This document shows positions 4,438 to 58,314 of a stretch of 64,000 nucleotides of DNA, in pieces (the first letter of the stretch is position 1; each line of letters starts with the position of its first letter). This DNA comes from Agarivorans litoreus (GTDB taxonomy: Bacteria > Pseudomonadota > Gammaproteobacteria > Enterobacterales > Celerinatantimonadaceae). The position numbers and the translations under genes are program-made. The stretch lies in contig NZ_BLPI01000001.1 of assembly GCF_019649015.1 (NCBI RefSeq), positions 3,095,001 through 3,159,000 on the forward strand. Direction: 5' to 3'. The notes under the pieces were generated by a model. The model did no database searches. It was not told where the DNA came from and saw nothing but the letters and a program-made list of their open reading frames with translations.

Positions 4438-4885
4438 CCTTCTCTTACTGGTGCCCCGAGCTTGGTTGTTTAAAGCTTGAATATTTAAGACTTGGATGCA
4501 GGCAGCAAGTTGAGCAAGGTCTAAATTAGCCAAAATGCCATGGTTTGCAGGGTTTCTGCAGTTGCTAAGTCAAGTTACTAGGCCAAATTAATCTGCAGGC
4601 CCTTATGGTTACTGTTGGTTGCTAACAAACCGTCTGAGACAGTGAGTACCACCGCGTAGCTACCGGCCGCTCCATAGTCGTGGTCAGCAGTAACGCCAGT
4701 GTCTGTATAACCATCACTAAAGTCCCATTGATAACTAAGAGTATTGTTTTCCGCATCGCTAGAGCTGCTAGCGTCGAAGCTGGCAGTTAAACCTTGGCTG
4801 CTTGCCCTGGCCTGCTTGTGGCTACATCCCATGGTGTTGCTGGATCTACGATTAAACCATGCGCCAATGCTTGGCTGGTGCCTAG

Positions 4886-5145
4886 GGTCTGTTGATCTTT
4901 GGTGTTGAAATTTTGTTCGAGATAAGCGGGCTTTAATCGCGGCGAGCACTTAGAAGCCTAGTGGGCTAAGCAAGAAGTGCTTAACAAAGAGTAAAGTTCG
5001 CTTATCCGAACCCTTCGGGCAGCATTTCTTAGCCATTTATTCAGCGTTAGCGAGTGATGATTAAGCCCACTTAACTGCACACTCACTGCCTTGCCTAAAT
5101 GGCTAATAAATTGCTGTAAAAACCATCAGCAAAGATCAACAGACC
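4886..5145. mobile_element. MITE-like element, copy 1 (260 bp)
   Basis: The ends are inverted repeats beginning GGTCTGTTGATCTTTG, and the element is bounded by CTAG on both sides (4882-4885 and 5146-5149). No open reading frame for a transposase is present. An internal imperfect inverted repeat, GATAAGCG-GG-CTTTA against TAAAG-TT-CGCTTATC, encloses a second stem GCACTT/AAGTGC. The 4-bp YTAR-type target and the GG-start ends resemble IS5-type elements, so it is probably moved by a transposase elsewhere in the genome. It lies within the signal-peptide region of the broken PKD-protein gene. Confidence 0.85.
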
Positions 5146-5149
5146 CTAG

Positions 5150-5409
5150 GGTCTGTTGATCTTTGGTGTTGAAATTTTGTTCGAGATAAGCGGGCTTTAA
5201 TCGCGGCGAGCACTTAGAAGCCTAGTGGGCTAAGCAAGAAGTGCTTAACAAAGAGTAAAGTTCGCTTATCCGAACCCTTCGGGCAGTATTTCTTAGCCAT
5301 TTATTCAGCGTTAGCGAGTGATGATTAAGCCCACTTAACTGCACACTCACTGCCTTGCCTAAATGGCTAATAAATTGCTGCAAAAACCATCAGCAAAGAT
5401 CAACAGACC
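5150..5409. mobile_element. MITE-like element, copy 2 (260 bp, tandem with copy 1)
   Basis: Same length, orientation and ends as copy 1, sharing the CTAG at 5146-5149 with it and followed by CTAG at 5410-5413. I see only two base differences between the copies (in the GGGCAG(C/T)ATT segment and in GCTG(T/C)AAAAACC), so the tandem arrangement is recent. Confidence 0.85.
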
Positions 5410-5446
5410 CTAGTAAACATAATGAAAGTACTAGCCTGTTAGTCAT

Positions 5447-39757: not shown

Positions 39758-39828
39758 GCTTGTCACTGATTAGTTAATCAAGCACAGTGCTGGGGGGCTT
39801 ATCTTTCGAGCTGATTTTTGCAGCCAAA

Positions 39829-39968
39829 AATGCTGCCCGAAGGGTTCAGATAAGCGGACTTTACTCTTTGTTAGCACTTCTTGCTTAACCCACTAGGCTT
39901 CTAAGTGCTCGCCGCGATTAAAGCCCGCTTATCTCGAACAAAATTTCAACACCAAAGATCAACAGACC
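39829..39968. mobile_element. MITE-like element, copy 3 (truncated, inverted orientation)
   Basis: The right end is the inverted-repeat end of copies 1 and 2 (AAAGATCAACAGACC) and the sequence is homologous to them from about 39829 to 39968. The target at the right is CTAA (39969-39972), another YTAR-type site. The left end is missing. The internal stem is preserved: where copies 1 and 2 have TTCGCTTATC, this copy has TCCGCTTATC, which improves pairing with GATAAGCGGG. Confidence 0.8.
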
Positions 39969-39970
39969 CT

Positions 39971-58114: not shown

Positions 58115-58250
58115 GTAGAGCCTAAAAGTAACGAGTGCTTAGTTTTACTTTACTTGGCTAGTTAAAGAGGGGCAACGCTGTGTGTAGTAAGAAGTGACCT
58201 AGTGTGGATTTAAGCTAAAAGAAACGGCTAGCTGCTCGTTTGCTAGCTAG

Positions 58251-58301
58251 GGGCTGTTTATCTTTTACAAAAAAAATTTAACCGCGAAAGATAAACAACC
58301 C
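58251..58301. repeat. 51-bp inverted repeat flanked by CTAG and TTAG
   Basis: The arms GGGCTGTTTATCTTT and (other strand) GGGTTGTTTATCTTT are nearly identical and are flanked by CTAG and TTAG, YTAR-type sites like those of the MITE-like family. The arms also resemble that family's ends (GGGTCTGTTGATCTTT). It may be a miniature element or serve as the terminator of the xylanase gene, whose stop lies 14 bases away. Confidence 0.55.
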
Positions 58302-58314
58302 TTAGCCTTACTCT

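Follow-up and report, generated by a model that had tools for sequence, protein, structure and literature searches.

The window, a 64,000-nucleotide stretch of the Agarivorans litoreus genome, carries, in a decayed AA10 LPMO gene, two tandem copies of a 262-bp element that share one TA and split the signal-peptide sequence. This element is a member of a previously unlabelled family, present in many Proteobacteria, whose folded shape with two arms is conserved while its sequence changes. MITEs are usually regarded as decaying insertion-sequence leftovers. Here, the occurrence in many genera, the near-constant length and the strong compensatory evolution imply a function for the interior, probably in the form of folded DNA. 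The features of the window are listed in the Table.

Table. Features of the window (R1, covariance model; G002, relative of the same genus with an intact AA10 gene)
Feature	Position	Strand	Basis or remark
5' fragment of interrupted AA10 gene, with start codon and first half of signal peptide	5413..5446	-	sequence, alignment to G002
Continuation: remaining signal peptide and mature HGLIVDP, as far as deletion 1	4841..4882	-	alignment to G002
Element copy 1 (262 bp) with terminal inverted repeats and two hairpin arms	4885..5146	+	R1 247 bits, E 5e-69
Element copy 2, 262 bp, oriented as copy 1, 260/262 identical (99.2%)	5149..5410	+	R1 247 bits
Left outer TA of the target duplication, in CTAG 4882-4885	4883..4884	.	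flanks, empty sites
TA common to both copies, CCCTAGGG junction	5147..5148	.	sequence
Right outer TA of the target duplication, in CTAG 5410-5413	5411..5412	.	flanks, empty sites
Deletion 1 junction, GATCCA/GCAACACC	4840..4841	-	198 bp lost, reading frame kept; G002 protein residues 27-92
Deletion 2 junction	4805..4806	-	661 bp lost between GCAAGC repeats; reading frame shifted, with stop TAA at 4787-4789
Deletion 3 junction	4605..4606	-	~363 bp between CAGTARCCA repeats; CBM2 removed
PKD-domain remnant, out of frame with signal peptide	4614..4811	-	PKD_4 E 1e-17
Third element copy, internally shortened, 178 bp	39792..39969	-	R1 149 bits, E 1e-40

On the minus strand, a start codon at 5446, preceded by AAAAGGGAATAAC, opens a signal-peptide frame that runs to the CTAG at 5410-5413 and continues in the same frame past the CTAG at 4882-4885. 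Joining the flanks yields MTNRLVLSLCLLGTSQALA/HGLIVDPATPW, as an earlier, sequence-only reading had proposed, and the intervening MITE-like copies are, as it had also noticed, direct tandem repeats with a 264-bp period (the 262-bp element plus TA) and 99% identity. The empty site that this reading anticipated in related genomes was found in G002, where TTATGTCTACTAGGAACCAGC is continuous through CTAG and aligns gap-free with the window flanks once the two elements, along with one TA, are taken out. The further claim that excision restores the gene did not hold, as the joined frame reads MTNRLVLSLCLLGTSQALAHGLIVDPATPWDVATSRPGQAAKV and stops, owing to other deletions. Judging from the sequence, excision would give back the signal peptide only; the gene, which has three more deletions including one that shifts the frame, would stay dead.

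The target had been read as the signal-peptide part of a gene for a secreted protein with a PKD domain, and its HG...DP mature start as that of an AA10 LPMO that has lost its catalytic domain; intact relatives agree on both points. Three relatives of the genus (G002, G004 and G006) have an uninterrupted 500-aa AA10 gene, and a domain search of the intact proteins identifies LPMO_10 (E 1e-35), Big_9, PKD_4 and CBM_2. These orthologues are assigned to AA10 by their LPMO_10 domain and by the N-terminal His that follows the signal peptide. In the G002 protein, LPMO_10 occupies residues 20-217, followed by the Ig-like Big_9, PKD_4 and CBM_2. Relative to G002, the AA10 catalytic domain of the window copy is largely deleted, and HGLIVDPATPW fuses parts that lie 66 residues apart in the G002 protein because of the 198-bp in-frame deletion. 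An AA10 reading frame was not found at the corresponding locus of another relative, G001, where an arylsulfatase-like gene stands instead, and one scan of genome contigs with the PKD fragment returned distant PKD proteins only. Separately, we observed that relatives have an arylsulfatase-like gene adjoining an acetyltransferase (L051 and L052), that G006 holds both the arylsulfatase-like gene and the AA10 gene, and that the window locus is without an intact copy of either. The AA10 gene itself is an ordinary example of carbohydrate-enzyme loss.

The 262-bp element has the hallmarks of a MITE: terminal inverted repeats (26-27 bp including flanking bases, 92-93% complementary), a TA target duplication, no transposase and multiple copies. 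The sequence-only reading had taken the 4-bp CTAG as the duplicated target. Across about 28 copies, the flanks follow the pattern YTA/GGG...CCC/TAR; because the outer bases often differ between the two sides, the actual duplication is TA (2 bp), with a preference for YTAR. Additionally, for four other copies, the flanks joined through a single TA correspond to empty sites at the targets CTAG, TTAG and CTAA in G001, G002 or G006. The element is repeated in its own genome (G000) far beyond chance, with at least 41 copies at 97% identity or more and, at up to two mismatches, 73 + 75 matches to its ends. The same genome gave 129 covariance-model matches, some of which are counted on both strands on account of the element's near symmetry, so that matches outnumber elements in copy-rich genomes. 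It also holds older-looking lineages of the folded element (L026:308-570, L110:294-557 and L128) that are 65-68% identical to the window copy.

Two origins of the tandem pair were weighed, a local duplication of one insertion and a second insertion into the flanking CTAG. The variant G175, present in 8 of 55 copies, is common to both tandem copies, which favors duplication. Set against this, each tandem copy has one more variant that is seen elsewhere in the family (7/55 and 4/55), and CCCTAGGG holds a preferred insertion target. We regard local duplication as a reasonable possibility that falls somewhat short of an even chance.

BLAST relatives that are 66-72% identical and of near-equal length occur on Vibrio and Pseudoalteromonas replicons and in Catenovulum. 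A covariance model built from a 19-member alignment (R1) matched 10 of the 12 genomes of the family, 77 of 198 genomes of the order (26 of 79 genera) and 27 of the 369 in the class sample. A second model (R2) comprised 47 members, with class-level R1 matches added, and the phylum counts obtained with it are thus partly iterative: 122 of 398 genomes matched across 58 of 212 genera, and most sampled genomes gave none. Roughly 100 of the 122 R2-positive genomes fall below E 1e-10. Throughout, the relatives keep a near-constant length of 259-267 bp, and distant members bear other terminal repeats (GGGCCTGTTAACACTA, GGGTCTGTTCCCGTTT and GGGCGTGTCGTCATGA). Hosts represented by plasmid records include Methylophaga, Azotobacter, Halomonas and Pseudomonas aeruginosa, mostly with partial matches. 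Copy number ranges within one genus from none detected (G005) to about 100 (G000-G002). Phages gave no match to the element, and Rfam 15 gave no credible one, only sub-threshold miRNA noise; a t44 match lies outside the element and is unrelated. A description of the 262-bp element was not found in Rfam 15 or in the open papers searched.

Across Pseudomonadota, the fold of the element has been kept by compensatory change. The window copy folds far better than its shuffles (z -9.4 and -8.7 on its two strands), and a Pseudoalteromonas copy gave z values of -6.6 and -7.3. The 19-member alignment is nearly gapless, and its fold consists of a terminal stem and two arms. Counting pairs as though related sequences were independent, we found double compensatory changes at 36 of 72 pairs among these 19 members and compensatory changes at 61 of 68 pairs among 47 diverse members, in which 93.1% of cells are paired, compared to 69.8% when shuffled and 36-41% with slid partners, and double-change cells number 737 versus 209. 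When 18 distant members were aligned alone with MAFFT, the de novo fold had the same three-helix plan, with 58 of 78 pairs covarying. Each arm displays the motif CAAGGC...AACGC around an internal loop, and the CAAGGC and AACGC of both arms, together with CCC...GGG between the arms, are kept while the stem letters vary.

Several shortened forms were also noted. Internally deleted copies of 125-181 bp (L102, L097 and L099) keep both ends and have one arm partly or wholly gone; such copies are useful natural tests of the arm requirement. A 53-bp mini-element at window positions 58250-58302, with ends GGGGCTGTTTATCTTT, has the end type of the 262-bp family and is without arms.

Recent copies behave differently from the family as a whole, with 120 pair-breaking changes, 41 wobble changes and 12 double changes. 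Since pairs are broken freely after insertion, the pairing appears to be kept by long-term selection, not by immediate repair, and the excess of pair-breaking changes fits a course in which copies decay once inserted and the fold is retained only in lineages that propagate. This observation bears on another view, in which the element is an ordinary MITE, a deletion remnant of an IS whose palindromic shape results incidentally from inverted repeats and is maintained by template-switch correction in the absence of selection. Template switching can correct hairpins, and terminal repeats with a TA duplication are typical of MITEs. Nevertheless, pair-breaking single changes predominate in recent copies, both the near-constant 259-267 bp and the unpaired motifs are conserved phylum-wide, and the IS with matching ends has no interior similarity to the element. 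The ordinary-MITE reading is already disfavoured, and we judge it quite improbable.

Either DNA or RNA could be the molecule that folds. In a transcript, G.U is tolerated on the strand itself, and the opposite strand would show A.C at the same place. In three data sets the G.T and A.C mismatches number 77:70, 21:21 and, within the recent family, 41:44, and the element resembles its own reverse complement. Both features suggest a role of the fold at the DNA level, or on both strands, and the apparent target of selection is a DNA hairpin or cruciform and not one transcript, although transcription of both strands would equally result in symmetric mismatch counts. We also considered that the fold may function as RNA, with the element spreading a structured RNA that is transcribed from it (an sRNA, a terminator or a stability element). 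Its predicted RNA fold is very stable, and published repeats, including Yersinia ERIC, act as RNA hairpins (PMC2267715). A transcript should tolerate G.U better, whereas G.T and A.C are equally common; moreover, the fold is about equally good on either strand and the element has no Rfam match as a structured RNA. A role as RNA is unlikely in our estimation.

A likely mobilizer is an IS5-family transposase. The sister-genus genome G011 (40 model matches) contains TA-flanked relics of such transposases, 855-867 bp long and typed as DUF4096 and NCBIfam transpos_IS5_3, with stops or frameshifts in the copies. One end of this IS is identical to the window element over 17/17 bp, and blastn detects no similarity between them beyond the ends. 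It is because of these common ends of about 17 bp that we infer an IS5-family mobilizer. An intact or functional transposase with the element's ends was not found. PF13340 was not found in G000-G003 or G006, and PF01609 was not found in G001 and G002, although these carry 78 and 103 model matches. PF01609 IS loci of the genus were rejected as mobilizers, as element ends were on the IS in 0 of 30 loci examined.

Taken together, we propose a DNA transposon of 262 bp that is non-coding and non-autonomous, inserts at YTAR and duplicates TA. An IS5-family (DUF4096) transposase recognizing its ends of about 17 bp most likely mobilizes it in trans. The element's interior is a conserved module, unlike an IS deletion remnant, and the terminal repeats are predicted to pair as a stem around the two hairpin arms. 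We hypothesize that the arms probably serve as binding sites for a protein on which the element's propagation depends, for example the transposase complex or a host factor that acts in replication or binds DNA structures. This explanation, as a whole, strikes us as probable. A broader proposal, which we offer tentatively and hold to be less likely true than false, is a Pseudomonadota-wide superfamily in which the two-armed DNA fold is the functional unit, terminal repeats are exchanged to ride different IS5-like transposases and the arms bind a conserved factor. The covariance model and the arm motifs provide a comparative handle on what propagates such elements.

Among known systems, integron attC sites have an R-box consensus to which the arm motifs, compared by eye, show no apparent fit. 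The ERIC/IRU repeats of Enterobacteriaceae and Vibrionaceae are similarly short, non-coding and multi-copy, with a long palindromic fold and no transposase of their own. However, ERIC has 127 bp and forms one long stem-loop (PMC2267715), whereas our element has 259-267 bp, two arms and a terminal stem, and is not an ERIC. Pae-1 of Pseudomonas aeruginosa, an 84-bp double-hairpin repeat (PMC2267715), resembles it in having two adjacent stem-loops, a likeness drawn from its description, and is much shorter than the element's ~262 bp. With the IS relics of the related genus, which belong to the DUF4096 subgroup of the IS5 family, the element shares TA flanks and the 17-bp end GGGTCTGTTGATCTTTG, but it is without a transposase gene or interior similarity. 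Finally, MITEPsy1 is 100 bp long with a 4-nt duplication and ends GGAAGGTCTGAAAAAGCC (PMC3189936); it is alike in its terminal inverted repeats, its CTAG/YTAA-type target and its suspected IS5-family mobilizer (PMC3189936), whereas the element described here has a TA duplication, other ends and an interior that is conserved phylum-wide.
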